A stretch of 15,089 nt of DNA. It comes from an uncultured Bacteroidota bacterium (GTDB lineage Bacteria; Bacteroidota; Bacteroidia; Chitinophagales; Chitinophagaceae). The notes under the pieces were generated by a model. The model saw nothing but the letters and a program-made list of their open reading frames with translations, searched no databases and was not told the DNA's origin. Made by a program: the position numbers and the translations under genes. Shown piece by piece: positions 1-15,089 of this stretch (its first letter is position 1; every line of letters starts with the position of its first letter). The DNA lies in NCBI GenBank assembly GCA_903847655.1, contig CAINEG010000274.1, positions 1 to 15,089 of the forward strand, written 5' to 3'.

Positions 1-193
1 CTCTGGGACTTCGGCCACTGCATAAACGTGTGATAAATCAGCCACCACAAAAAGTTCATCAGCAGGCTGCACCACTTGGCCCAAGTTGATTTTGAAAGGC
101 TTTAAATGTTCCTTCAGAAGTATATTGCCTAATATTCACTTCATAGATAGAAATAGTATCCACCCATTGTACCTGCTTAAAATTCACCTCCAT
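1..193 (-). pseudogene. Broken fragment of an efflux membrane-fusion (RND/HlyD-type adaptor) protein
   Basis: Read on the minus strand, positions 1-99 encode a stretch with LGQVVQPADELF and then VVADLSHVYAVAEVPE. This matches the end of the lipoyl/barrel-sandwich part and the following beta-barrel start of periplasmic adaptor subunits of RND efflux pumps (the G-Q-x-V-x-P-x-x-x-L-F-x-x-A-D-L-S-x-V pattern). That frame meets a stop at 136-138. A second frame is open from an ATG at 193 down to a stop at 59-61, and joining the two near 91-100 by a one-base shift gives a continuous reading. A stop at 206-208 closes the second frame upstream, so the signal peptide and hairpin expected of a whole adaptor are absent. 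The rest of the gene would lie off the left edge. It may be a decayed gene, or low-quality sequence at a contig end. The family call rests on one motif region only. Confidence 0.45.
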
Positions 194-228
194 TTTATAC
201 TTTTTTTATTATCTTGTCAACCTACTTT

Positions 229-1584
229 ATGAGCCAAACAACAAATCTAGAACGCAAATTAAGTCTTTTACATGCAACCGCCATCAACATGATTGATATG
301 GTGGGCATTGGTCCTTTTGTAGTGTTAAGTGTGGTGGCACAAATTATGGGAGGCCCCTATTTTTTATATGCTTGGATAGCAGGCGCCCTACTTTCTTATT
401 TAGATGCCATGGTATGGAGTCAATTAGGTGCCGCTTTACCTAGAGCAGGTGGTAGTTTTCATTTTTTAAAAGAAGGGTACGGCGAAAAAGCAGGATCACT
501 GATGAGCTTTTTATTTGTATGGCAAACGATGATTCAAGCCCCCTTGGTGATTGCTTCCGCGGCCATTGGTTTTTCGCAATATGCCAATTACTTTTTTCAT
601 CTAAGCTTTATTCAAGAAAAAGCGGTGAGTGGATTAGTGGTAATATTGGTGATCTCATTATTATATCGAAAAATCGAATCCGTCGGAAAAATTTCAGTGT
701 TTTTATGGGTAGGGGTATTAGGTACAATGGCTTGGATTATTTTTGGCGGTATTGCGCACGGAAATTTTCTAGCACCCATCCAACACATCAATGATGGCTT
801 TACCATGCAGCATGGTTTTGTAGCCGCCCTAGGATTTGCCAGTGTCAAAACTATTTATAGTTATTTAGGCTATTATAATGTTTGTCATTTAGGTGCTGAG
901 ATAAAAAATCCGAGTAAAAATATTCCTAGAAGCATGTTTATTTCCATTACAGGGATAGCAATATTGTATTTAGCCATGAATATTAGTGTAGCCAGTGTGC
1001 TGCCCTTTCAAACTATTGTGACTAGTAAGTTTGTCGTAAGTGATTATATTAAAGCCTTATATGGCCCCACTGCTGGAGCCTTTGCTACTATATTAATATT
1101 AATGGTCGCCTTCGCCTCCTTATTTTCTGCCACCTTGGGCTATAGTAGAATTCCTTATGCTGCTGCACAGGATAGATCCTTCTTTCCTTTCTTTAAAGAA
1201 CTACATCCTAAATTACATTTTCCACATCGCTCCTTATTGGTACTAGGAGGTATTGCTTTTGTATTTAGTTTGCTGTTTAGATTAAAAGAAGTCATTGATG
1301 GTATTTTGGCCATGCGAATTTTAATTCAATTTATAGGACAGGCCATTGGTCTTTTACTATTGTTTAAAAGAAAAGGAAAAGGGTTTTTCCCATGGAAAAT
1401 GCCGCTCTATCCCCTGCCTTTATTTTTAGCCATTATTATTTGGGCTGGTATCTTTTTTTCCACAGGGACTAAGATGATGTTGAGTGGACTCACTGTCATA
1501 AGCCTTGGCTTAATCGCTTATTTTATTGCCAAAAAATTTAAATGGATTGGTGTAGTAAGTACAGAAGAAATAAATAAAAATTAA
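229..1584 (+). CDS. APC-superfamily amino acid permease
   Basis: This 451-residue integral membrane protein has about twelve hydrophobic segments and almost no soluble domains. It belongs to the amino acid/polyamine/organocation (APC) family, which moves amino acids or amines across the inner membrane by proton symport or exchange. The first membrane segment carries GIGPF, in the place of the glycine-rich GxG(I/P)F substrate-binding loop of the family. It is followed by the typical second-segment region with SQLGAALPRAGGSF, and later by GAEIKNPSKNIPRS, the conserved loop before helix 7. The substrate cannot be read from sequence. I chose the ATG at 229; a TTG at 214 in the same frame would add only five residues. 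No clear Shine-Dalgarno is seen, as is usual in Bacteroidota. It is divergent from the adaptor fragment and convergent with the small membrane gene, with two bases between the stops. Confidence 0.88.
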   Translation: MSQTTNLERKLSLLHATAINMIDMVGIGPFVVLSVVAQIMGGPYFLYAWIAGALLSYLDAMVWSQLGAALPRAGGSFHFLKEGYGEKAGSLMSFLFVWQTMIQAPLVIASAAIGFSQYANYFFHLSFIQEKAVSGLVVILVISLLYRKIESVGKISVFLWVGVLGTMAWIIFGGIAHGNFLAPIQHINDGFTMQHGFVAALGFASVKTIYSYLGYYNVCHLGAEIKNPSKNIPRSMFISITGIAILYLAMNISVASVLPFQTIVTSKFVVSDYIKALYGPTAGAFATILILMVAFASLFSATLGYSRIPYAAAQDRSFFPFFKELHPKLHFPHRSLLVLGGIAFVFSLLFRLKEVIDGILAMRILIQFIGQAIGLLLLFKRKGKGFFPWKMPLYPLPLFLAIIIWAGIFFSTGTKMMLSGLTVISLGLIAYFIAKKFKWIGVVSTEEINKN

Positions 1585-1586
1585 AG

Positions 1587-1727
1587 CTATTTACTTCTAG
1601 TGCCAATACCACTAATAAGCAGTCCAATAACAAGGCCAATTATCAATCCGATTTTTACATTCTTTATCAAATAACCTACCCCAAGTCCTATAATTAGTAA
1701 AGTAAAAATGCTCACATTGCGTCTCAT
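1587..1727 (-). CDS. Small glycine-rich membrane protein (46 aa), function unknown
   Basis: A 46-residue reading frame starts MRRNVSIFTLLIIGLGVGYL, continues with a short basic break (IKNVK), then a second hydrophobic run IGLIIGLVIGLLISGIG, and ends TRSK. It predicts two short transmembrane helices with glycines at regular spacing (G-L-G-V-G; G-L-I-I-G-L-V-I-G), suited to tight helix packing, and a basic N-terminus. The ATG lies two bases after the stop of the PIG-L deacetylase gene, so translation is probably coupled to it. The stop lies two bases from the stop of the permease on the other strand. The frame therefore fills the whole gap, which supports a real gene. I do not recognise a family. 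It could be a structural membrane peptide or a remnant of YtxH- or glycine-zipper-like proteins. Confidence 0.6.
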   Translation of the reverse strand: MRRNVSIFTLLIIGLGVGYLIKNVKIGLIIGLVIGLLISGIGTRSK

Positions 1728-1729
1728 GG

Positions 1730-4090
1730 TTAATGCTTAGGTAAAGAGATTAAGTTGGATAGGATTTTATACGCACCTGCATTACCTGCAGGGAGTTGTC
1801 TAAATAAAACCAAACTCAAATACACCATATTACCTTTGCCATAAGGCGCAATCAATAAACTGCCATTCGAGCTAGGCTCTCCTTTATCACTCATGGCTAA
1901 GGGTGTTTCGAAATGTGTATCTATATTTTCTGCTTGATAGGTTGTTCTTTCTTGCACCCATCCTTCAAAATCCTGTGCAGTAATTTTATTTGGACTATTC
2001 AACACCGCATGATTAGGCAAAACAAATTGCACAGGCACATCTTCTTGCGTTACTCTTCTGCCACTGTTTACCGTAAATGCATAAGGGCCTGCTTTTATTT
2101 TCTTTAAACCTACTTGATTGCTTTTTAAATACTGAACAATCAAGTTGCCCCCTTGTTCAATATAGGTGTTGATGATGTCGTTCTTATCTGTTAAATAATC
2201 CAACATATTGTAAGCGCGAATACCCACCACCACGGCATCCAATTGTTTTAATTTTTCTATACTAATGTCTGATTCTTTTAAGTAAACTACTTCATACCCT
2301 AATTCAGTTAATGCTTCGGGTAATTTATCTCCAGCACCGTCGATATACCCTACCTTGGCTGGTCTTGAAATGAGATTGGCTTCCACCAGTTTTGTAGTAG
2401 CCGTGTGGAAATAAGTAAGTGTAGGAATATGGTCATACTGAATGGTCTTGGTAAACACATCATTGGCACTCGTAGGCAATGGATCATTGGCTGATTTTAT
2501 TTCTACTTTGGTATAACTGGCCTTACCCTGATGTAAATCTTGGTAGCCAATACGAATGGATTTCCCTACTGGTTTTAAATAAAGTTCTTTATCATATTTT
2601 ATTTCATGATTTGGCAATACCACCACTGGCTCGTAGACTTCTCCTTTGGTAGGATCCGTGAATTTGTATTGCACTGGAATAGTGAAATTAAAGGAACCAC
2701 CTTCGATGGCAATGGTCATACTTACTTCAAAAGCAGGTTTGTTTTCTGCATCCCCAATCAAGACAGGATTTGTGACCACAAACATGCCTTCTGTTTTTGG
2801 TTGCACCAACCAATAAGGTTGTGAAATAGGCGTACTTGCGGGCAGTTTAAAACTATAATCATATTGAAAATTCTCATTATAGTTAAGTACTTTATTGAAA
2901 ACAGAATCGATGCCTTCTGGCAAATGAACCATGACTAATGTGGAACTAATGGATGTTCTTTGATTTAAGAAAAATTGAAGCTTTAGATTTTCGCCTTGTA
3001 AAACTTGTTGCTGTTGTGTCGTGGCTTCAAAAAATAAACCCGCTGCTTCTTTAATGATATTTTTAAGCTCCTCTAATTTATAATCACGCCATTTAGAGGC
3101 AGGTAAACTTGAAATTTGTTGATACAAAGCAACTAGTGCGGATACCGAAGCAGATGGATTTTCTGTTTGGAACTGTTTGGCAATGGCATTGATTCCATTT
3201 TCTATGGCAGTGGCTTGTTTTTCAGTACTTGTAATTTTACGCCAACTAATATCTACCCCATCCATGATATCATTGCTTGCTGTATCACCCCCTGTCAATT
3301 CAAAATATTCATAGAGTGGGCCTCTTCGACGCGGTCTTCCTTCTCCCTGACTTTTGTGCATGGTTCTTGCTTCGGCACCAATCTCTCCATAACTTTTCCC
3401 TAATAACGCATTGAACCCTCCCACTTCCAATTTTAATTGTTTTTCATTGGTGGTATTCACCGAACCAAAATTAAAAGTATTCCATACTATTCTTTTGGCC
3501 TTCCATGGAACAAGCCCTAGTTTGAACTGCTCTGGAAATTTAGAAGGATTGGCTGCTGCAATATAGGCTTCATTGGCAATGATCGCAGAGGCAGAATGAT
3601 GGCCATGACCCGCACGCGCATCTCCAGGGAAACGGGTAATAATAATGTCTGGTTGAAATTTTCTAATCACCAAAACAGCATCACTCAAAACTTTCTCATG
3701 GTCCCAGATGCGTAAGGCTTCCTCTGAGGATTTACTAAACCCAAATTCATAAGCGCTAGAAAAATATTGTTCGGCACCATCTATTCTTCTTGCAGCCAAT
3801 AATTCCTGTGTTCTTATCATCCCTAATTCCACCCCTTGCTCTTTGCCAATTAAGTTTTGTCCACCATCTCCTCTTGTTAAACTCAAATAAGCAGTCCTAA
3901 ACATTCTTTGTTTGGTCAGATAGGGCAAGAAGCTATTGTTCTCGTCATCTGGATGCGCTGCTATATACAAAACACTACCCACTGTTTTTAACTTATTGAT
4001 TTGAGCTAAAATTTCAGCACTTGGTTTTTGTGCAGAGGCCATGAAAGTGCTTAGTAAGCAGACAAAAATTAAGTGATAGCGCATACGCAT
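1730..4090 (-). CDS. Secreted PIG-L (LmbE-like) family deacetylase with ThuA/GATase-like C-terminal region
   Basis: This is a 786-residue exported protein. Residues 1-21 form a signal peptide (MRMRYHLIFVCLLSTFMASA, cleavage near ASA-QK). Residues about 37-220 are a PIG-L/LmbE domain: AAHPDDE (His46, Asp48, Asp49) and HGHHSAS (around 162-168) are the expected zinc-binding and catalytic motifs. Family members remove N-acetyl groups from sugars such as GlcNAc conjugates. The middle part is beta-rich. Residues about 555-670 contain GYEVVYLKESD, VVGIRAYN and GGNLIVQY, which resemble the ThuA/class I amidotransferase-like fold, without an obvious catalytic Cys. This two-part form is common in Bacteroidota. 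The natural substrate is unknown. The ATG at 4090 is preferred because the signal peptide starts there; the frame is open to a TTG at 4147, but that would put a non-signal segment in front. An ATG at 4084 is equally possible. Confidence 0.85.
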   Translation of the reverse strand: MRMRYHLIFVCLLSTFMASAQKPSAEILAQINKLKTVGSVLYIAAHPDDENNSFLPYLTKQRMFRTAYLSLTRGDGGQNLIGKEQGVELGMIRTQELLAARRIDGAEQYFSSAYEFGFSKSSEEALRIWDHEKVLSDAVLVIRKFQPDIIITRFPGDARAGHGHHSASAIIANEAYIAAANPSKFPEQFKLGLVPWKAKRIVWNTFNFGSVNTTNEKQLKLEVGGFNALLGKSYGEIGAEARTMHKSQGEGRPRRRGPLYEYFELTGGDTASNDIMDGVDISWRKITSTEKQATAIENGINAIAKQFQTENPSASVSALVALYQQISSLPASKWRDYKLEELKNIIKEAAGLFFEATTQQQQVLQGENLKLQFFLNQRTSISSTLVMVHLPEGIDSVFNKVLNYNENFQYDYSFKLPASTPISQPYWLVQPKTEGMFVVTNPVLIGDAENKPAFEVSMTIAIEGGSFNFTIPVQYKFTDPTKGEVYEPVVVLPNHEIKYDKELYLKPVGKSIRIGYQDLHQGKASYTKVEIKSANDPLPTSANDVFTKTIQYDHIPTLTYFHTATTKLVEANLISRPAKVGYIDGAGDKLPEALTELGYEVVYLKESDISIEKLKQLDAVVVGIRAYNMLDYLTDKNDIINTYIEQGGNLIVQYLKSNQVGLKKIKAGPYAFTVNSGRRVTQEDVPVQFVLPNHAVLNSPNKITAQDFEGWVQERTTYQAENIDTHFETPLAMSDKGEPSSNGSLLIAPYGKGNMVYLSLVLFRQLPAGNAGAYKILSNLISLPKH

Positions 4091-4198
4091 ACTGTTTTTT
4101 TCTAATGGTTGAGAATGGCTTATAAAAATAAGAAAGTTTGCGCTCAATTTGTTGAATCTTAAATAATTAAGTAAATTACCTATTCAATTTCCCAACTT

Positions 4199-5938
4199 AT
4201 GAAAAAAACTAACCTTCCATTGCCTTTGCGTATAGGTATTTGTATGCTTAGCCTTGTTTTAATAAGCCCTATGGGCTTTGGACAATCTTTCTTTAAAGCA
4301 CATCCAAGTATCAACCCCTATCATTACGAAATTGCTAAAGAAAAGTCTTTTGACCATGCTGCAGTTTCATCTGCACATGCATTGGCCAGTATGGTAGGTG
4401 CAGCCATCATGCAAGAAGGAGGCAATGCTTTTGATGCAGCCATTGCGGTTCAGTTTAGCTTGGCTGTTGTATTTCCAGAAGCAGGCAATATTGGTGGAGG
4501 TGGATTCCTATTGGCAAGAAAAGTAAATGGGGAATTAATAGGACTTGATTTTAGAGAAGAAGCGCCGGCCAAAGCATCTAAAGATATGTATCTAGATGAA
4601 AAAGGGAACCCCTATGCAGATAAATCTACAAGAGGTGCATTGGCCTCTGGTATTCCTGGTTCTGTGGCTGGCATGTTTAGTGCACATGCTAATGCAAAAC
4701 TTTCCATGGCTCAATTAATTGAACCTGCTATTGAGTTGGCTGAATTTGGTTTTGTTATTTCAGAGAGTGAGGCAAAGGGATTAAATGCCAACCGAAATAG
4801 TTTTACAAAATTTAGTTCAAAGGCGAGTGTATTTACAAAAAAAGAAAATTGGAAAGCAGGCGATACTTTAATTCAAACTGAACTTGCAGCCACCTTGAAA
4901 AGAATTCAAGTAAAAGGAGCTGCTGGCTTTTATGAAGGGCCCACTGCTTCCATGATTGTAAAAGAAATGGCACACAGTGGTGGTATTATCAGTTTGGCCG
5001 ATTTAAAAAACTATGCCCCTAAATATAGAAAGCCTATAGAATTTGATTACAAAGGACATCATATCATCAGCTTTGCACCTCCTTCTAGTGGTGGCATATT
5101 ACTGGCTCAAATGATGAAGATGATTGCCCCCTTCGATATTGCTAAAATGGGTAACAATACGGCAGCTACTGTAAGTTTAATGGTAGAAGCCCAACGCAGG
5201 GCCTATGCAGATCGTGCAGAACATATGGGCGATCCAGATTTTTGGAAAGTGCCTACTAAAACATTGATCAGCGATACCTATGTCAAAGAAAGAATGCGTG
5301 ATTATGTAACAGGTGTTAAAGGAACTAGTAAAATAACCAATGCAGGACAAATTCATGAAAGCGAACAAACCACTCATTTTAGTGTGATCGACAAAGATGG
5401 TAATATGGTTGCCATTACTACTACGTTGAATGATTCTTACGGAAACAAAACCATCGTAGCAGGTGCTGGATTTATTTTAAACAATGAAATGGATGACTTT
5501 AGTATTAAACCAGGTGTGCCCAATATGTATGGTGCCATAGGTGGCGAAGCCAATGCCATTCAAGCGGGAAAAAGAATGCTTAGTTCCATGACTCCTACCT
5601 TAGTGACAGTCAACAATAAGCCCTTTTTAAGCATTGGAACTCCAGGCGGCACCACCATCCCCAATCAAGTATATGAAGGCTTGGTAGACATCATCGATCT
5701 TAAAATGACATTAAAACAATCCATTGACGCCCCTAGATTTCATCATCAATGGATGCCAGATAATATCATGCTTGAAGCTGATTTTCCAGAAGCAACAGAA
5801 CAAGCTTTAAAAGCGATGGGTTATACCACGATGAAACGAGGCCGTTTTGGAAGAATGGATGGTGTTCAAATTACCACTGATGGCAAACGAACGGCGGCCG
5901 GTGATAAACGAGGCGACGATAGTGTTGCTGGTTACTAA
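4199..5938 (+). CDS. ggt: Gamma-glutamyltransferase (gamma-glutamyl transpeptidase)
   Basis: This 579-residue exported enzyme hydrolyses or transfers the gamma-glutamyl group of glutathione and related peptides in the periplasm. Residues 1-29 are a signal peptide (basic MKK, hydrophobic core, end near MGFGQ). The large-subunit part has NAFDAAIAVQFSLAVVFPEA and GGGGF, followed by FREEAP. The autoprocessing site is Gln390-Thr391, in EQTTHFSV; Thr391 is the expected N-terminal nucleophile of the small subunit and falls at the same number as in the E. coli enzyme. Downstream are NNEMDDFS, the PGVPNMYG segment, KRMLSSMTP and GTPGGTTIPNQV, which supply the substrate pocket and oxyanion glycines. 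Length is normal for the family and all key motifs are present. It is divergent from the PIG-L gene; the 108-base gap must hold both promoters, but I see no exact consensus. The pre-ATG region has no Shine-Dalgarno. Confidence 0.95.
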   Translation: MKKTNLPLPLRIGICMLSLVLISPMGFGQSFFKAHPSINPYHYEIAKEKSFDHAAVSSAHALASMVGAAIMQEGGNAFDAAIAVQFSLAVVFPEAGNIGGGGFLLARKVNGELIGLDFREEAPAKASKDMYLDEKGNPYADKSTRGALASGIPGSVAGMFSAHANAKLSMAQLIEPAIELAEFGFVISESEAKGLNANRNSFTKFSSKASVFTKKENWKAGDTLIQTELAATLKRIQVKGAAGFYEGPTASMIVKEMAHSGGIISLADLKNYAPKYRKPIEFDYKGHHIISFAPPSSGGILLAQMMKMIAPFDIAKMGNNTAATVSLMVEAQRRAYADRAEHMGDPDFWKVPTKTLISDTYVKERMRDYVTGVKGTSKITNAGQIHESEQTTHFSVIDKDGNMVAITTTLNDSYGNKTIVAGAGFILNNEMDDFSIKPGVPNMYGAIGGEANAIQAGKRMLSSMTPTLVTVNNKPFLSIGTPGGTTIPNQVYEGLVDIIDLKMTLKQSIDAPRFHHQWMPDNIMLEADFPEATEQALKAMGYTTMKRGRFGRMDGVQITTDGKRTAAGDKRGDDSVAGY

Positions 5939-6006
5939 AGTATAGATTGATAAGCAATTACAAAAGCTATCTACACTAAATCTATGATTGGTTTTAGGTC
6001 AATTTT

Positions 6007-9000
6007 ATGCCTATTATTCAAAGGCATTTTTGTATTTTTACAAAAACCCATTTTTTGTTAAAAAATAAGCTTGCCCTACTCAGAATTATTGCTGCTTCCC
6101 TGGTAGGTTTATTCCTGCTTGCTTATTTATTATTGCTTATCCCTACCATACAAAATAAACTGGCCACTACCCTAGCCAATCATTTTTCAAAAGCCATCGG
6201 CACTGAGGTAAAATTAGGGCAGGTTCGTTTTTCCTTGTTTGACAAATTAGACATTCAAGAAATATTAGTCAGAGACCAAAACAAGGATACGCTTCTTTAT
6301 ACTTCTTCTTTAAAATTACGTTTGACCGACTTGGTATTCTCCAATGCGAGCCCGATGATTAAATACATTGGGTTGAGCGATACTAAAATTAATTTTAAAA
6401 GAAACAAAAATAGTTGGAATTATGCTTTCCTTCTAGCCTATTTCAACGCGGATACTACCCAAACCCAAAAATCCAATGGTTTTGACATTCAAAAAATTGA
6501 TATAGCCAACCTAAGTTTCAAACAAGAAAACCAATGGCAAGGTCAAGACATGGTATTTAATGCTAAAAATGTATTGGCCAATATTAAATCCTTTACCAAG
6601 GACAGCATTCTAATTGATCAGCTCATCCTCAATCAACCAGACTACCTCATTCAAAACTACCCTGGCAAGGCGCCATTGATTAAAGCAACCACACACAAAA
6701 GAATAAAAGGCAAACCATATTTCAATCCAACCAATTTGTACTTATGGGCCAATGAAGTTCAAGTGACAAAAGGTAAATTTTGGATTGAACAGGGCTTTAA
6801 TCAACCTCTGAATAATTTTGATGGGGAACATATTCGTATACAAAATATCAATGCCCTTTTAAAAAATATTTCTTTCAATAAAGACACTATTCAAGCAAAA
6901 GTTAATTTGAGCTTAAAGGAACAATCTGGTTTTGAAATAAAAAAACTGTTGACCAATTTTAAAATGACTCCTGAAATAATGGAGTTTAGTGCATTGCATT
7001 TAAAAACAAATAATAGTACGATTGAAAACTATTACGCCATGCAGTACCATGATTTTGGCGAAGATTTTAGTAATTACATTCAAAATGTAACGATGAAAGC
7101 ACATTTGGTCAACGCTACCGTAGCTACTGATGACATTGCCTATTTCACCCCCTCCATGGCTTCCTTTCATCATAAACTTACTACAGGCTTTCATTTTAAT
7201 GGCACAGTAGCCAATTTTGAAACCAATGACTTTAAAGCCAGCTACAATAACTCTAAAGTAGCTTGTCGTTTTTCGATGCAAGGCATTCCTGATATGAGGA
7301 ATACCTTAATCAACTTTAGCAATGTCACTGCCAATACGAATTATAATGATTTAGCCAATTGGATACCTAGCTTAAAACAAATAAAATCAATTGAATTAGA
7401 CAAGCTCAATGGCCTAGATTTTAAGGGAGAATTCAAAGGAAGTTTTTTCGATTTTTTAGCGAAAGGCCAGATGCAGTCTCCAGTAGGCTCAATTGTTTCT
7501 GAAATAAGATTAAAATTTCCAGAGAAAGCAGAACCTAGTTATGAAGGCGCTATTACCGCCGATCATTTGAACATTGGTAAAATATTCAATGTGAATAGTT
7601 TAGGCCTTTTGAACTTTAAGGGGAAAATAGCAGGCAGTTCTTTTGACATTGAAAACATCAAGACGAAAATTGAAGGAGATATCGACACCATTGAATTTAA
7701 CAAATACAACTATACTAATATTAGCACCAATGGGCTATTGCAAAAAAGGTCTTTCAATGGTAGGTTAAATATTAAGGATCCCAATATTAACTTTAACAGC
7801 AATATTGCACTACTATTCAATAAGGACAAACCCAAGATCAATGCAGTAGGTGATCTATTGTATGCCAACTTGGAAAAATTAAATATCACTAAGAACCAAA
7901 CACAACTCAAGGGTTTACTAGACATTAATTTTGAGGGTAATAATATTGATAATTTTATTGGATTCGCTAAATTTTACAATGGAAGATTGAAATCCCCGGG
8001 CAATGCAGTGAATTTTGATTCATTGAACATTCAGTCTAGCATAGTTAATGGCTTAAAAAAAATAAGCATTGCTAGTGATGATCTTCAAGCCAGTATCATA
8101 GGTAAATTTAATATTTTAAATTTACCCGCAAGCGTGCAATATTTTATGCAACGCTACTTGCCTACTTATATCCCTGCTCCAAAAAACACAGTCAGTAATC
8201 AATTATTTCAGTTTCAAATTAAAACTAATTATTTCGAGCCCTATCTGCGTCTTTTTGATCCATCTTTTTCAGGCTTTAATAATATTTCATTAACCGGTGC
8301 CATTAATACCGACAAGCAAACCATTGAAGCCAAAGGCAAGCTGCCTTATATTAATTGGAACAACTATACCATCAAAGGCGGAGACATCTATGGCAATGGA
8401 ACACAGGACTCACTGCATTTATTTTTTACAGCCGATGCTTTTCAATTTTCAGACAGCACGAGCTATACTAAAGCTGCTGTTACCATACATAGCAGCAAAG
8501 ATATTTCTGAACTAAGAATAACAGGGACTAGCAAGAGTATATTAGAACAAGTTGATTTAAACGCCACCGTGAACACTTATGCAGACGGAATTGCTATGAA
8601 ATGGAAGCCTTCTTTTTTTATGTTGAACCAAAAAAAATGGTCCATCAACGAAAATGGTAGTTTGATTTTAAGAAAAAGCAATACTAGTGCCAAAAATTTC
8701 AAATTCACCCAAGGAATACAAGAATTTGTTTTCTCTAATTCGCCCACCGAAGAAAATGCCCTTCAACTTGAATTGAAAAATATCATACTAGGTGATATCA
8801 CCAAACCATTTTTTGATTATCCAAAATTAGAAGGTTTGACCAACGGTAAAATTCAATTCAAAAATATTGTACAAGACTTAACCTTTGCTGCTGATTTAAA
8901 AATAGATCAATTTAGGTTTAACAATGATTCCATAGGATTCACTCAAGTGAATGCAGGTTATCAAAATTCAAAAGGCATTATCCCCTTCTCCTTTAGTTGC

Positions 9001-10746
9001 CCCAACAGCGAATACAATTTAAGTGCCAATGGTACTTATTCAATAAAAGACAGCGCCAACCCCTTAGATGCCACTTTATTTTTACATCATTCTAAATTTA
9101 GTTTGGTTCAACAGTTTATTGGTAGCGTATTGACCAATTTAGAGGGCAAGGCCAATGGGCAAATTCATTTCGGTGGAAGAATTGAACACCCTTATTTATT
9201 GGGGGAGGCAAGCCTTCAAAACAGCTCCTTTATTGTAGACTATACCAAAGTGAAATATTTTATAGATAGCAGTACCATCAAATTCACTAACGAAGGCGTT
9301 GATTTTGGAAATGTCTCTTTAAGAGATGCCCAATATAGACCAGCCAGTTTTAAAGGTAAAATATTGAATCAAGGCTTTACTCATTTAGTCTATGATATGG
9401 AAATGAGTAGTCCAAAAATAGAATTGCTCCATACAGATCCTATAGACAATGCTAATTTTTATGGGTATGCTGTGGGTAAGGCAGCCATGACCATCAAGGG
9501 TCCGGAGGAAAATATAAAAATGGTTATCAATGCAGACGTCAACGATAGCTCTCATATTTATTTACCCAATAGTACGAGCAAAGAAAATGGCAAATCAGAC
9601 TTTATTGTTTTTAAGAAATTTGGAAAATCGGCCATTAAAAGTGCAGACATCCCCTCCTTTAATTTAGTGGTTGATTTAGAAGTAACGGCCAATAATAAAA
9701 CTCAGATAGATGTGATCATGGATGAACTGACTGGAGATGTAATTAAAGCGGTGGGCAATGGTCGAATAAAAATCAGAGCTGGCAATATTGAACCCCTCAG
9801 CATTAGAGGAAAATACAATATAGAAGCTGGTAAATATGATTTTAACTTCCAGTCCTTTATCAAGAAACCCTTTGATTTGATACCTGAAGCAGGTAATTAT
9901 ATTGAATGGACAGGTAATCCTTATCAAGCAGACATCCATATTGATGCCAGGTACACGGCGCAAAGGGTTAGTTTGAATGAACTGGTAGGCACAGCTAACT
10001 TTAGCAATGCGGTGAGAACTTACCGCGGCAATGTGTATGTCATTGCAGCGCTCCGAAACAAATTGGCGCAACCAGATATTAAATTTTCATTGGCATTTCC
10101 TCAGGGCAATCCCATAAGTTCTGACAATGAGTTTTCTCAATTCATTACTAGATTAGAGCGTGATGACAATGAAATTCTAAAACAAGTTTCCTTCTTAATT
10201 GTGTTTAATTCCTTTGCACCAGTTGGATTTAGCAATGGTAGTGGGAACAATAACAATAATGCCTATACCGTTACTTCCATTGGAATCAATACCATCTCAC
10301 GTTTATTGACCAAGGAAGTAAATAAATCCATCACCAGTATTTTAAATAAGGTCACGGGTGATAAAAGCCTAAGGTTTGATGTGGGCTCTTCGGTTTACAA
10401 TAGTGCCAATTTATTAGACCCCTCTGGGGTTGGTATTGCCATCAATGCCAATAAAATTGACCGTCAAAGAGTTAATTTAAAATTAGGCCGTAGTTTTTTA
10501 AACGATAAAATAATTGTGAATGTAGGTGGCGACTTAGATTTTAATGTACAGAATACCAGTGCCATTCAAAACGGAAGTTTCCAATGGCTCCCCGATTTGA
10601 ATGTGGAATTTATATTGACAGATGATAGAAAACTAAGAGCCATCATCTTTAATAAAAATAGTTTAGACATTAGTGGAAGTAGCCTAGGTAGAAGGAATAG
10701 ACAAGGCCTAAGCATTTCTTACCGTAAAGACTTTGATGAATTTTAA
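6007..10746 (+). CDS. tamB: TamB family translocation/assembly protein (DUF490)
   Basis: This 1579-residue envelope protein is the inner-membrane-anchored partner type of the TAM system, and its relatives (AsmA-like bridge proteins) span the periplasm and help outer-membrane protein or lipid transport. One N-terminal membrane helix covers roughly residues 25-45, and the next segment (LATTLANHFSKAIGTEVKLG) is typical of AsmA/TamB proteins. The long middle is a succession of short beta-strands with many N, K, F and T residues and no catalytic motifs, expected for a beta-taco or groove. The C-terminal TamB domain begins near residue 1150 and includes GNGRIKIRAGNIEPLSIRG and YIEWTGNPYQADIHIDARY (about 1299-1317). 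An Asn run lies near residues 1414-1418, and the protein ends in an aromatic (DEF). No tamA/BamA-type gene is adjacent. The start is the ATG 68 bases after ggt; a TTG at 6055 is possible but leaves less of the N-terminus. Confidence 0.9.
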   Translation: MPIIQRHFCIFTKTHFLLKNKLALLRIIAASLVGLFLLAYLLLLIPTIQNKLATTLANHFSKAIGTEVKLGQVRFSLFDKLDIQEILVRDQNKDTLLYTSSLKLRLTDLVFSNASPMIKYIGLSDTKINFKRNKNSWNYAFLLAYFNADTTQTQKSNGFDIQKIDIANLSFKQENQWQGQDMVFNAKNVLANIKSFTKDSILIDQLILNQPDYLIQNYPGKAPLIKATTHKRIKGKPYFNPTNLYLWANEVQVTKGKFWIEQGFNQPLNNFDGEHIRIQNINALLKNISFNKDTIQAKVNLSLKEQSGFEIKKLLTNFKMTPEIMEFSALHLKTNNSTIENYYAMQYHDFGEDFSNYIQNVTMKAHLVNATVATDDIAYFTPSMASFHHKLTTGFHFNGTVANFETNDFKASYNNSKVACRFSMQGIPDMRNTLINFSNVTANTNYNDLANWIPSLKQIKSIELDKLNGLDFKGEFKGSFFDFLAKGQMQSPVGSIVSEIRLKFPEKAEPSYEGAITADHLNIGKIFNVNSLGLLNFKGKIAGSSFDIENIKTKIEGDIDTIEFNKYNYTNISTNGLLQKRSFNGRLNIKDPNINFNSNIALLFNKDKPKINAVGDLLYANLEKLNITKNQTQLKGLLDINFEGNNIDNFIGFAKFYNGRLKSPGNAVNFDSLNIQSSIVNGLKKISIASDDLQASIIGKFNILNLPASVQYFMQRYLPTYIPAPKNTVSNQLFQFQIKTNYFEPYLRLFDPSFSGFNNISLTGAINTDKQTIEAKGKLPYINWNNYTIKGGDIYGNGTQDSLHLFFTADAFQFSDSTSYTKAAVTIHSSKDISELRITGTSKSILEQVDLNATVNTYADGIAMKWKPSFFMLNQKKWSINENGSLILRKSNTSAKNFKFTQGIQEFVFSNSPTEENALQLELKNIILGDITKPFFDYPKLEGLTNGKIQFKNIVQDLTFAADLKIDQFRFNNDSIGFTQVNAGYQNSKGIIPFSFSCPNSEYNLSANGTYSIKDSANPLDATLFLHHSKFSLVQQFIGSVLTNLEGKANGQIHFGGRIEHPYLLGEASLQNSSFIVDYTKVKYFIDSSTIKFTNEGVDFGNVSLRDAQYRPASFKGKILNQGFTHLVYDMEMSSPKIELLHTDPIDNANFYGYAVGKAAMTIKGPEENIKMVINADVNDSSHIYLPNSTSKENGKSDFIVFKKFGKSAIKSADIPSFNLVVDLEVTANNKTQIDVIMDELTGDVIKAVGNGRIKIRAGNIEPLSIRGKYNIEAGKYDFNFQSFIKKPFDLIPEAGNYIEWTGNPYQADIHIDARYTAQRVSLNELVGTANFSNAVRTYRGNVYVIAALRNKLAQPDIKFSLAFPQGNPISSDNEFSQFITRLERDDNEILKQVSFLIVFNSFAPVGFSNGSGNNNNNAYTVTSIGINTISRLLTKEVNKSITSILNKVTGDKSLRFDVGSSVYNSANLLDPSGVGIAINANKIDRQRVNLKLGRSFLNDKIIVNVGGDLDFNVQNTSAIQNGSFQWLPDLNVEFILTDDRKLRAIIFNKNSLDISGSSLGRRNRQGLSISYRKDFDEF

Positions 10747-10754
10747 TGCAAATA

Positions 10755-12314
10755 CTATTTAGCCGCTATTGGTAAAATAGATGATGGTAATGCTTTACAT
10801 CCCTTTAATCGATAAACATAAAAATTTCTGAGTAGTACGCCTTTACTTAAAATAGGAATGGTGTCTGGTGCTTGAATATTGGTAAAATAAGCACCGTACA
10901 ATTCAGTAGGATTAGCAGGTAAATTAGAAGGTACAATACAATAAGCATCCTCTCCTATTTTTAAAGCTTCCTGTGTTTCATTCAACCAAGCAAACTTATG
11001 CACGTCCTCTAAGGCACCAATGGCAATTACTCTCGCATTCACCAAAGGAGCTGTATAAAACAACAAATGTCCACCAGGGAACCATTTATGCACTAAAATG
11101 GGTGCATGGGTTGACATGGTCCCTGCAGCCTTGTCTTTTTCTACCATTTTATTAAATGCTGCACTAAAATAGGACCAACCTGTAAGGTCATTGATTGGAT
11201 TGTATTCTCCTAAATTCTCCATTTTGCTAGAGCCTAATTGAGTTGGAAACACTTTTACGATCAGTAATAGCCCCAAGGTGGCCATACCCATAAAGCCAAT
11301 GGCCCATTTCAATAGAACCGGGATGGCCTTGCGTGAATAAGTTGCCCAATAAACCCCTGCAATTAAAAACAAGGAAATAAAGGCAGGGCCTGTCCAATGT
11401 GGTAAGGTGGAATTAAACAAGGAGAGACTCCAAAAAACTAGTATCAATGGTAGGCTCAACCATAAAAGTAAATTAATTGCAAGGGCGCTTTTGGCTTGAT
11501 ACTTTACTTTTTTAATTCTTAACAAGGAGATGACAATAGAGATGTAGACCAAAGGATTTTGATAAAAAAACTCACCTCCTATTTGTTGAAAAAAACTAGA
11601 AAAAGAGATGCCAGTATGGGTGACTCTTTTGGAGTGAAATTTATAAGTAATAAAATCATTTTGGAAATTCCAATAGACAATAGGTACAATACAAATAAGG
11701 GTCGCCAATACCGCTAAATAAAATCCTTTTTGTTGGAGGGTTTTAATTTGATTGAATAAAATAAATAAACCAAACCCCACCCACAGGTATAGTCCATGCA
11801 CTTTGCTCATGGTGGCCAAGCCTACAAATAAGCCCAATAAAATCCAATCAAATAAAGTAAAAAAATGTGGTTTCATTACCCAACTCAACATCAAATAAAT
11901 ACTCAAAGTAAAAAACAACAATTGAGGACTATCGGGTAGTACAAATAAACCAGCAATGATAGAAGTATAAATAGAAAGATTATAAAGCAATGCAGCTATC
12001 CAACCCGCTTTCTCATTTTTTAATAAAGTACCTGATTCAAATACAACAATGGTAGAAATAGCGGCAGCGATTAAACTACCTAAACGCATGGAGAATGCCG
12101 ACAACCAATGTAAATTAAAAGTGAAAACACGTATCATCCATCCTACCATGGGCGGATGATCAAAATGATTCCAATCAGGTTGAAGGGCATAGGTATAATA
12201 ATACACTTCGTCGTTGCCTAGTTCAAGAAAATAAGAAAGTACAATTTTAACGACCATCGAAATACCGATCAGCCACCAAAGCTTTTTTTGATATACCACA
12301 GGGGTTATGGCCAT
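10755..12314 (-). CDS. GT39-like membrane glycosyltransferase (ArnT/PMT superfamily)
   Basis: This 519-residue polytopic protein has roughly eleven to thirteen membrane segments and a soluble C-terminal part of about 120 residues. After the first helix comes GNDEVYYYTYAL with Asp35-Glu36, the acidic pair used by GT-C enzymes for metal and lipid-phosphate sugar binding. It is followed by WNHFDHPPMVGW, a hallmark of GT39/ArnT-like proteins. Such enzymes transfer a sugar from an undecaprenyl or dolichyl phosphate donor to a protein, lipid A or a glycan on the periplasmic side; the acceptor here cannot be told. I chose the ATG at 12314; a GTG at 12344 in frame would add ten residues ahead of the first helix. 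Its stop is eight bases from the tamB stop on the other strand. A gap of 106 bases separates it from aroQ, so it may be the last gene of that unit or have its own promoter. Confidence 0.85.
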   Translation of the reverse strand: MAITPVVYQKKLWWLIGISMVVKIVLSYFLELGNDEVYYYTYALQPDWNHFDHPPMVGWMIRVFTFNLHWLSAFSMRLGSLIAAAISTIVVFESGTLLKNEKAGWIAALLYNLSIYTSIIAGLFVLPDSPQLLFFTLSIYLMLSWVMKPHFFTLFDWILLGLFVGLATMSKVHGLYLWVGFGLFILFNQIKTLQQKGFYLAVLATLICIVPIVYWNFQNDFITYKFHSKRVTHTGISFSSFFQQIGGEFFYQNPLVYISIVISLLRIKKVKYQAKSALAINLLLWLSLPLILVFWSLSLFNSTLPHWTGPAFISLFLIAGVYWATYSRKAIPVLLKWAIGFMGMATLGLLLIVKVFPTQLGSSKMENLGEYNPINDLTGWSYFSAAFNKMVEKDKAAGTMSTHAPILVHKWFPGGHLLFYTAPLVNARVIAIGALEDVHKFAWLNETQEALKIGEDAYCIVPSNLPANPTELYGAYFTNIQAPDTIPILSKGVLLRNFYVYRLKGCKALPSSILPIAAK

Positions 12315-12420
12315 AATCGGTTTTAATTGTAAAATATAAAGCACTACAAAAACTGGCTGTACCCTTTATACTTGTTTAAAGTTAAAAAATCCTAGTACTA
12401 AAATAAGGAAATATAATGGA

Positions 12421-12846
12421 TTAGCTATGGGCTAAAAACCACTCAGTCGCTAAGGCATAGCCTTTTAAACCCAGGCCTACAATAGAGCCTACTGATTTAG
12501 CAGAAACATGTGATATCTTTCTAAAATCCTCTCTAGCATGTACATTACTGATATGCACTTCAATTACCGGTGTTTTAATGGCGGCTACGGCATCCCCAAT
12601 GGCCACTGAAGTATGAGTATAGGCTGCAGGATTTAAAATAATGCCGGCTTTATTAAAGCCATGAGCTTGAATGGCTTGAACAATCTCCCCTTCGATATTG
12701 CTTTGAAAATAAGTAAAGCTTACGGTAGGAAAATCTTTCTTTAATTGCACTAAAAATTCTTCGAAACTAGCATGGCCATAAACATCAGGTTCTCTTTTCC
12801 CTAATAGATTTAAGTTGGGTCCGTTGATGATGGCTATTTCTAACAT
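12421..12846 (-). CDS. aroQ: 3-dehydroquinate dehydratase, type II
   Basis: This 141-residue cytosolic enzyme dehydrates 3-dehydroquinate to 3-dehydroshikimate, the third step of the shikimate pathway. It has the full set of type II signatures: NGPNLNLLGKREPDVYG with the catalytic Tyr23 and Arg18, the NPAAYTHTS loop (Asn72 to Ser80) and EVHISNVHAREDFR with the catalytic His98 and substrate-contacting Arg105. The length is normal for the dodecameric family. The ATG at 12846 lies only 12 bases after the carA stop on the same strand, so the two are probably co-transcribed. No Shine-Dalgarno is clear. Confidence 0.96.
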   Translation of the reverse strand: MLEIAIINGPNLNLLGKREPDVYGHASFEEFLVQLKKDFPTVSFTYFQSNIEGEIVQAIQAHGFNKAGIILNPAAYTHTSVAIGDAVAAIKTPVIEVHISNVHAREDFRKISHVSAKSVGSIVGLGLKGYALATEWFLAHS

Positions 12847-12858
12847 GCTATAAATATA

Positions 12859-13953
12859 TTAATTCGATTTCATTAAAGATACGAAATCATCAAATAAATA
12901 CCTGCTATCGTGTGGACCCGGTGTTGCTTCGGGGTGGTATTGCACACTGAATGCGGGACGGTCTTTTAATTTAATGCCCTCAATAGAGTCGTCATTCAAG
13001 TTCACATGTGATACAATTACATTGGGATGTTTGCGCACTGCATCAGGATCTACACCAAAGCCATGGTTCTGTGTAGTAATTTCACATAAACCTGTAATTA
13101 CATTTTTAACCGGATGGTTTAATCCGCGATGACCATGGTGCATTTTAAAAGTGGGAATATCATTGGCTAAGGCAAGTAATTGATGTCCTAAACAAATACC
13201 AAATACTGGCTTCTTTTCTTTTAAAACTTCTTTGATGGTTTTAATGGCATAGTCCATTGGGGCTGGATCTCCAGGGCCATTGGATAAAAAATAACCCGTT
13301 GGATTAAACGCTTTTAAAGTCGCAAAATCGGTTTTAGCAGGATGCACTCTTACATGTGCTCCTCTATCTACTAAACATTGTAATATGTGTTCCTTCACAC
13401 CAAAATCTAAAACAGAAACTTTAATTTTTGAACTGGTATCCCCTAGTTCATATATTTCTTTAGTGCTCACCGTGCTGGCTAATTCTAATCCATCCATGCT
13501 AGGCACTTTTGCTAGTTGCGCTTTCAATGAATCAACATCTAAATTGTCTGAAGAGATAATACAGTTCATGGCACCTGAATTACGCACATGTATCACCAAG
13601 GCTCTTGTATCTAGCCCTTCAATAGAAACAATATTATTTTCAATTAAGTATTCATTCAAATTGCCATCTGCCAATAGACGGCTGTATTTTTCTTCTAAGT
13701 TGCGTCCAATTAATCCATGAATTTTTACCGACTTACTTTCTACATCAGTTTTTCTTACCCCATAGTTACCTACGTGCACATTGTTCATGATAATGATTTG
13801 TCCGGTATAACTAGGATCTGTAAATACTTCTTGATAGCCTGTCATGCCCGTATTAAAACATATTTCACCGGTGGTAGTGCCAATTTTACCAAAGGCTTGA
13901 CCGTGAAATACATGACCATCGGCTAGAACTAAAATTGCTGGTTGTGCGCTCAT
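12859..13953 (-). CDS. carA: Carbamoyl-phosphate synthase, small (glutaminase) subunit
   Basis: This 364-residue cytosolic subunit releases ammonia from glutamine and passes it to CarB for carbamoyl phosphate, feeding arginine and pyrimidine synthesis. The N-terminal CarA domain has GEICFNTGMTGYQEVFTDPS. The C-terminal class I amidotransferase domain has SNGPGDP, FGICLGHQLLA with the nucleophile Cys254, and QYHPEATPGPHDS with His340 and Glu342, completing the catalytic triad. Length is normal. carB is not in the window. It lies downstream of a ribosomal protein gene end and a terminator, and aroQ follows after 12 bases. Because the terminator separates it from the ribosomal gene, it should have its own promoter in 13954-14057. 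A partial match to the Bacteroidota -7 element (TATC then a T-run and G, 13988 to 13977) is the best candidate I see there, but no good -33 partner accompanies it. Confidence 0.97.
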   Translation of the reverse strand: MSAQPAILVLADGHVFHGQAFGKIGTTTGEICFNTGMTGYQEVFTDPSYTGQIIIMNNVHVGNYGVRKTDVESKSVKIHGLIGRNLEEKYSRLLADGNLNEYLIENNIVSIEGLDTRALVIHVRNSGAMNCIISSDNLDVDSLKAQLAKVPSMDGLELASTVSTKEIYELGDTSSKIKVSVLDFGVKEHILQCLVDRGAHVRVHPAKTDFATLKAFNPTGYFLSNGPGDPAPMDYAIKTIKEVLKEKKPVFGICLGHQLLALANDIPTFKMHHGHRGLNHPVKNVITGLCEITTQNHGFGVDPDAVRKHPNVIVSHVNLNDDSIEGIKLKDRPAFSVQYHPEATPGPHDSRYLFDDFVSLMKSN

Positions 13954-14057
13954 TTTGGGTTGCGAGTTTTGTTATGCAAAAAAAGATACAATTTTTTACT
14001 TTTCCATAATAACTTTTGAACATTGTGCCTGAATCAAAAGAAATGACGAAAAAGGGC

Positions 14058-14088
14058 AAAAAAAAGGCAAGACGGTGAGTCTTGCCTT
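14058..14088 (-). terminator. Rho-independent terminator after the ribosomal protein gene
   Basis: A perfect 10-base-pair stem (AAGGCAAGAC at 14064-14073 pairing with GTCTTGCCTT at 14079-14088) encloses a five-base loop. On the minus strand the stem is followed by eight T residues (the A-run at 14058-14065; two of these also pair in the stem). It sits 22 bases after the stop of the upstream ribosomal protein fragment and should end that transcript before carA. Confidence 0.85.
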
Positions 14089-14110
14089 GTATGTTAATTC
14101 ATTAAAATCA

Positions 14111-14206
14111 TTATTCAGCAGCAGTTTCAGGTGAATCTGTTGCAGTTTCAGCCGCTGGCGCTTCCGCTTTTGCTTTAGGTGCTTTTTTAGCTGTAGTAGT
14201 GGTTTG
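14111..14206 (-). CDS. rplQ: C-terminal end of a ribosomal protein, probably bL17 (partial, cut at the junction)
   Basis: The minus strand encodes a tail beginning TTTTAKKAPKAKAEAPAAE and ending in an acidic, Ala- and Thr-rich stretch (ATDSPETAAE) before the TAA at 14111-14113. Low-complexity Ala/Lys/Glu tails are typical of several Bacteroidota ribosomal proteins. The position directly upstream of carA, as known from rpoA-rplQ-carA gene order in this phylum, favours bL17. bS16, which can carry a similar tail, is the main alternative. Only about 31 codons are in familiar sequence. Further upstream the frame stays open to a stop near 14303, but the encoded residues (Pro, His, Ser, Trp) no longer resemble a ribosomal protein and the base composition changes, so the gene is cut by the join. 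Confidence 0.6.
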   Translation of the reverse strand, partial: QTTTTAKKAPKAKAEAPAAETATDSPETAAE

Positions 14207-14218
14207 GTGTTGTCTGAG
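14204..14218. other. Probable chimeric join between two genomes
   Basis: Left of this point the DNA is AT-rich with Bacteroidota genes; right of it the DNA is GC-rich with different codon use (many GGC, CTG, GTG, GAG codons). The change falls inside the ribosomal protein tail, between the run of Thr codons and unrelated residues. No insertion-sequence end, tRNA, integrase or target-site duplication is visible here, which argues against a normal transfer event and for an assembly join. The exact base cannot be fixed by eye. Confidence 0.7.
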
Positions 14219-14360
14219 GGGGGTGTGTACGCTGGATGGCTGGACCCAGACTGTCGGTGACTGATTATTAGAGGCGCAGGGTTGCTGCAAATGCCAAACG
14301 TGCTACATTAACCAAACGGTGCAGGCAGCGCCGTGTTTCTAACTCTGGAAGTAAAGATTT
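14219..14360 (+). other. Leader region upstream of ftsH, with possible end of a preceding gene
   Basis: Two plus-strand frames run across the join and stop early: one ends GGVYAGWLDPDCR at a TGA near 14261, the other ends near 14273. Either could be the C-terminal end of a gene lying upstream of ftsH in the donor genome, but nothing is long enough to name. The remaining 85 or so bases up to the ftsH start hold no gene. GGAAG at 14348-14352 lies nine bases before the ATG and is a plausible Shine-Dalgarno. Confidence 0.4.
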
Positions 14361-15089
14361 ATGTCAGACTCCGAATCTCGTAACGGCCCTCAGGGGCAGC
14401 GCCCCGGCAATGGTGGAAACCATGGTGGAAACCATGGCGGAAACAATGGTGGAGACCAGCCGTTCAACTGGCGTGCTCTGTTGTTGTTGGCGATGGCCAC
14501 GGCCCTCATCGGTGGGGCTTTTGTCTACAGAACCCCGACTGCGAGCATCAAGGAGCGGCCCTATTCTGAATTTCACGCCGCTGTGGCCAACCACTGGGTG
14601 GACACGTCCAAACCGCTGGAGTTGATCAGCGAGGCGGGAAGCATTAACGACCACATCCAAGGGTGGTCCCGCTTTTCAGAAGGGGGCTCCCCGGAACATT
14701 TCCGCACTCAAGTCAACCTTCAGTACAACACCGATCTCCGGGAGTACCTGCGGGAGCACGGACTGGAGGCGAACCCGCGAGCGGAGACAAACGTGATGGC
14801 ATCTACGATCATGGGGTTCCTGCCGGTGGCGATGTTTCTGCTGGTGCTGTATTTTCTTTTTCGCCAGCAGATCCGCAGTGCGGGCCGGGGGGCCCTCAAC
14901 TTTGGCAAGTCCAAGGCGCGGGTGATGAGCCGGGAGAAGAACAAGGTCACTTTCAAGGACGTGGCCGGCGTGGAGGAGGCCAAGGAGGAGGTCGGCGAAC
15001 TGGTGGACTTCCTGCGCAGCCCGCAGAAGTTCTCGAGCCTGGGCGGACACATCCCCCGCGGTGTATTGATGGTCGGCCCCCCCGGCACC
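14361..15089 (+). CDS. ftsH: ATP-dependent zinc metalloprotease FtsH, N-terminal part (runs off the window)
   Basis: The first 243 codons of ftsH are present. FtsH is a membrane-bound hexameric AAA+ protease that pulls out and degrades membrane and short-lived cytosolic proteins. A hydrophilic Gly/Asn-rich tail (residues about 9-34) comes first, then membrane helix 1 (about 39-56), a periplasmic domain (about 57-145), membrane helix 2 (about 147-170), and the start of the AAA domain. That domain shows the diagnostic [15 protein letters not shown], then [11 protein letters not shown] and [15 protein letters not shown]. The window ends inside the Walker A motif, just before GKT, so the ATPase core and the HEXXH protease are not seen. 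The long Gly/Asn tail and GC-rich codons fit Verrucomicrobiota or a similar group, an inference by resemblance. A Shine-Dalgarno-like GGAAG precedes the ATG. It is foreign to the genes at 1-14,205. Confidence 0.93.
14410..14457 (+). repeat. Four tandem 12-base units inside ftsH
   Basis: ATGGTGGAAACC occurs twice exactly (14410-14421, 14422-14433) and twice with one or two changes (14434-14445, 14446-14457). In the ftsH frame it encodes repeated x-G-G-N units ([12 protein letters not shown], then NGGD) in the cytosolic N-terminal tail. The unit is a multiple of three, so copy changes would keep the frame. Confidence 0.9.

Follow-up and report, generated by a model that had tools for sequence, protein, structure and literature searches.

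A contig that places an ftsH gene beside carA, with the tail of a ribosomal protein gene between them, raises the question of whether this gene neighbourhood belongs to one living genome. The DNA analysed here, called the window throughout, is a stretch of 15,089 nucleotides from an uncultured Bacteroidota bacterium, and the original prediction held that it joins two unrelated genomes inside the ribosomal gene. Comparison with related genomes bore this interpretation out, in that the two sides of the joint differ in lineage and in their native context elsewhere. The features on which the argument rests are collected in Table 1.

Table 1. Coordinates and supporting evidence for the features of the window (G001, G348 and G325 are genomes used for comparison)
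Feature	Position	Strand	Evidence or remark
Foreign scrap with similarity to CusB/HlyD-type efflux adaptor genes	1..83	-	Pfam HlyD_D23, E 1e-5; tblastn
Contig core, colinear with G001:C35	84..14199		Single match, 88.96% identity over 14124 columns
Alpha-amylase gene, 5' end, cut by the left joint	84..193	-	99/100 first bases identical to G001
Stretch without mismatch to G001	87..476		Mismatches at 86, 477, 519, 528 and onwards
aroQ (3-dehydroquinate dehydratase II), native neighbour of carA	12421..12846	-	Pfam DHquinase_II, E 4e-52; order as in G001
carA	12859..13953	-	Pfam GATase and CPSase_sm_chain; organism-named kin Sediminibacterium/Bacteroidota
rplQ, C-terminal tail	14111..14203	-	Aligned to the 178-aa rplQ of G001; stop codon 14111-14113
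Joint zone, no significant match to either genome	14200..14264		G001 match ends at 14199, G348 match starts at 14265
Native upstream leader of a Verrucomicrobiota ftsH	14265..14360	+	Identity over 14270-14366: 95% with G348, 83% with G325
ftsH, 5' portion of 243 aa, continuing beyond the window end	14361..15089	+	DNA 83% identical to G348 and 76% to G325; FtsH kin Chthoniobacteraceae and other Verrucomicrobiota

Most of the window, from 84 to 14199, would be a piece of a Sediminibacterium-like Bacteroidota chromosome. The nearest genome compared (G001) has 20% of the sampled 31-letter words in common with the window, and its identity to the core, taken in blocks of 500 bases outside 87-476, ranges from 83 to 96%. 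The gene order in this relative is rpoA, rplQ (intact, 178 aa), carA and aroQ. Among the best 120 of 8000 matches in a CarA protein search, the closest reach 91-98% over the whole protein, and those that carry an organism name are Bacteroidota or Sediminibacterium, at 78-80%. Sediminibacterium is a member of Chitinophagaceae. The core also carries a large open frame of 1579 aa (6007-10746), situated between a gamma-glutamyltranspeptidase and a PMT_2-type glycosyltransferase; Pfam gave no match for it at E 0.001, and from inspection by eye we presume that it may be a TamB-type protein.

The gene cut at the right-hand end of the core had been named as probably rplQ, severed in its tail, and this identification was confirmed by the intact copy of G001, which matches Pfam Ribosomal_L17 with E 8e-33. 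The conserved L17 core of the gene is missing from the window; an intact second rplQ may lie elsewhere in the genome. Of 98 genomes in the G001 family, 96 gave a match to rplQ, a few of these being partial. The neighbourhood of the gene was inspected at 30 loci out of these 96 matches, with about 1.5 kb on each side where the contig allows. At all 30, rpoA adjoins rplQ; at 26, carA is present within about 1.5 kb beyond rplQ; and ftsH, searched with the window fragment as query at E 1e-5, was found at none. As carA went undetected at four loci (L097, L103, L108 and L113), the rplQ-carA order is not universal. Of these, L097 is shortened on its rpoA side, and a contig end is therefore not the reason for its missing carA.

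Beyond the joint the affinity is different. Lineage checks of CarA and FtsH, proposed in the original prediction and run separately, returned, among the listed matches that bear an organism name, Bacteroidota/Sediminibacterium as closest for the former and Verrucomicrobiota for the latter, which speaks against a refutation of the two-genome interpretation. When the FtsH fragment was compared with genome contigs, the first of the best 80 of 575 relatives was a Chthoniobacteraceae MAG (56% identity), and 24 of the top 25 rows within these best 80 of 575 carry names of Verrucomicrobiota or of groups that belong to it, other phyla coming after. In a protein search the best match has 60% identity, and the organism names among the 120 matches listed are Chthoniobacteraceae, Chthoniobacterales, Spartobacteria and Verrucomicrobiota. 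Pfam recognized a weak FtsH_ext in the fragment (E 0.035) and no ATPase domain, the latter being cut by the end of the window.

The DNA of the right piece was compared with 384 genomes, which represent the class of G099, the genome of the Chthoniobacteraceae MAG. Matches were obtained in 275 of the 384, led by G348 with 83% over window 14265-15088 and followed by G325 with 76%. The leader segment 14270-14366 matches only these two of the 384 genomes, so that ftsH is accompanied by the upstream region native to it. About 300 bases upstream of ftsH, G348 has another open frame. Searched against the DNA of G001, positions 14200-15089 (890 bases) gave no match at E 0.001. The FtsH of G001 itself, a 699-aa open frame on contig C14, has 54% identity to the fragment over residues 163-243 only, and within the 147 genomes of the G001 family the right piece was matched in nine, each time over at most 143 bases and in its last third. 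A blastn search of 14200-14400 against 30 of the best 80 FtsH loci produced one 34-base match with E 0.49 and nothing significant. On these comparisons, the core would have been artificially joined at about 14204-14218 (bracket 14200-14264) to some 830-880 bases of a Chthoniobacteraceae-like Verrucomicrobiota genome.

Some minor features of the right-hand region can be recorded here. The identity of the window to G348 in the ftsH leader (95%) is above that of the whole matched stretch (83%), the contigs concerned being G348:C21 and G325:C114, and this hints that a promoter or 5' UTR element is conserved within a small Verrucomicrobiota group. By eye only, a sigma-70-like pair (TTGCTG / TACATT) was noticed in the leader. 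Four units of a repeat with a 12-base period (14408-14458) code for a Gly/Asn/His-rich stretch near the N-terminus of FtsH, and the Gly-rich stretch at this place is shorter in G348 and longer in G325. The sole Rfam match in 13000-15089, to SprX, scored 17.4 bits where the cut-off is 80 (E 0.94) and was rejected as due to chance.

Composition changes at the joint, as had been claimed. The G+C content rises from 0.369 on the left to 0.593 on the right, and the corresponding regions of G001 and G348 have 0.369 and 0.598. By blocks of 200 bases it moves from 0.385 (14001-14200) through 0.535 (14201-14400) to 0.59-0.605 in the later blocks. Between adjacent windows of 400 bases, the largest step is 0.19, at 14117, and the largest at more than 400 bases from there is 0.12. 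Codon use shifts as well: the seven complete left-hand genes have a third-position GC of 0.290-0.342, and the ftsH fragment has 0.761. The proposed change in translation-start style is favoured weakly: the purine word GGAA occurs within 20 bases before ftsH, and none of the six purine words tried was found before the seven left genes, whose start codons were taken mechanically as the first available. With respect to position, the range 14204-14218 given by the original prediction does fall inside the homology bracket 14200-14264, with a weak resemblance to G001 persisting a few bases beyond 14199, to about 14203, but composition by itself does not locate the joint to within a few bases. The best third-order Markov split falls at 14362, with 53 positions in 14198-14383 within 3 nats, and is unable to pin the joint because the AT-richer ftsH leader (14262-14362) reads like the left side.

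The reported lack of a mobile-element hallmark at the joint agrees with what the window shows of it. No inverted repeat was found in 13900-14500, where the sole direct-repeat family falls inside ftsH, and ARAGORN detected no tRNA or tmRNA in the window. No mobile-element gene occurs in the seen part of the window; the right piece has its far boundary beyond the window end. A 26-base word across the joint had no exact match in viral contigs, which says little. Exact words common to G001 past the end of its match and to the sequence upstream of ftsH reach at most 7 bases, with G348 and G325 alike, a number that may underestimate the shared words at the joint since these genomes are relatives serving as proxies and not the source strains. 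From this short common word, the join was probably not made via a repeat.

The window has a second joint, at its left end (about 83/84), which the first reading of the sequence missed. Identity to G001 flips at this point, with 22 of 83 bases identical before it (chance level) and 99 of 100 after it, and the alpha-amylase frame of G001 continues past the corresponding point (Pfam Alpha-amylase, E 1e-36). The first 83 bases have a G+C content of 0.518 versus 0.32 next door, and the reading frame of the scrap differs from that of the amylase gene, both being on the minus strand. The scrap encodes 28 residues, and its HlyD_D23 score of 25.4 bits is under the curated cut-off of 30. Protein searches with it covered a plasmid collection and the family of G001. 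In the plasmid collection, the best tblastn match was to Cupriavidus (78% of amino acids, E 8e-6), and 22 plasmid records matched at E 1, four of them at 60-80% identity and 18 below 60%; a betaproteobacterial origin of the scrap would be a guess. The protein search in 147 genomes of the G001 family found no match, a result that shows nothing as the search was without a positive control, and the DNA search of the same 147 genomes with positions 1-84 gave one 30-base match, in a single genome. At about 83/84, then, the core was most likely fused artificially to this fragment of an efflux-adaptor gene, whose source is probably a third lineage.

Taken from the sequence comparisons, the window appears to be a chimeric contig, most likely of mixed-community origin, that combines the core, the Verrucomicrobiota piece and the foreign scrap at the left end, and we put the probability of this reading at about 0.94. 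The homology to each relative breaks off at the joints, there are two main affinities, and the native contexts of the two sides differ in the relatives. A chimera from the library or the assembly fits best because foreign pieces stand at both ends, each inside a core gene, no integration hallmark is seen, and the composition is that of the foreign source. The alternative that Verrucomicrobiota DNA entered a living Sediminibacterium-like cell and integrated inside rplQ, by horizontal transfer or rearrangement, is very improbable. It draws on the fact that the right piece reaches the window end, so that the far boundary is unseen and an integrase may lie beyond. It would, however, cut a ribosomal gene that nearly all genomes of the family possess and would require rplQ to be lost or duplicated; the joint has no inverted repeat and the window no tRNA; the right piece has a composition equal to that of its Verrucomicrobiota relative; and the other contig end, with its own joint and other foreign DNA, is left unexplained. 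This second joint shifts the balance strongly from horizontal transfer towards an artefact. We give the slimmest chance of all to a living Bacteroidota population that has recently acquired the Verrucomicrobiota ftsH with its leader, inserted in the tail of an additional rplQ copy that the cell can do without. It is also improbable, though a little less so than transfer, that the right joint alone is artificial and positions 1-83 represent the true gene order of the strain. There are just 83 bases to judge by and the searches in the 147 family genomes were uncontrolled, which leaves this idea some room; against it, the scrap begins abruptly inside the amylase gene and in a different frame, and the match to G001 is nearly perfect on one side and at chance level on the other.

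A horizontally acquired segment or genomic island is recognized by a sudden shift in composition and phylogenetic affinity, with an integrase, repeats or a tRNA at its boundary. The window likewise shows an abrupt shift in both properties, but its joint has neither an inverted repeat nor a tRNA and there is no mobile-element gene in the part seen; in addition, the joint cuts rplQ, and the opposite contig end has another foreign scrap. The finding is an artefact to flag and not new biology, and the odd gene neighbourhood is most likely not biological. Consequently, the contig is unfit as evidence for ftsH-carA adjacency, for a broken rplQ or for transfer of ftsH between phyla; the original warning that it would mislead on adjacency and on horizontal transfer was justified. 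Before the contig is binned or used in studies of gene order, it should be trimmed on the left at about 84, though the doubtful stretch reaches to about 520, and on the right at about 14199. Inspection of both contig ends can help to separate artefact from gene transfer.

As to how the joins arose, we infer that they were made in the library or by the assembler. The inferred route is a chimeric molecule, or the extension of each contig end by a low-coverage read, and not a shared repeat, since exact words common to the proxies at the joint next to ftsH do not exceed 7 bases. A variant of the artefact, compatible with the main reading, would be a tangle of the two genomes in the assembly graph caused by a common repeat or k-mer, and we regard it as unlikely. 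It is a route to chimeric contigs described in PMC7299287, where such contigs are treated as a problem of metagenome assembly; against it stands the low limit on common words between the continued G001 sequence and the regions upstream of ftsH in G348 and G325, which are not the source strains. The window resembles the chimeric contigs presented in PMC7299287 in that more than one genome is found in one contig, with breaks in homology and composition. It differs in that the main partners belong to different phyla and their proxies have so little exact sequence in common, and it is therefore unlike the confusion of related species described there.

A smaller discontinuity is present within the core. 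Over positions 87-476 (390 bases) there is no mismatch to G001, versus a divergence of 11% across the contig. With independent sites assumed, the chance of 390 consecutive matches at 11% divergence is about 1e-20. Since a run of this length is improbable by chance, the pattern of mismatches makes a strain-level switch at about 480-520 likely, with either natural recombination or assembly as its source, and it may be of the related-species kind that PMC7299287 describes.
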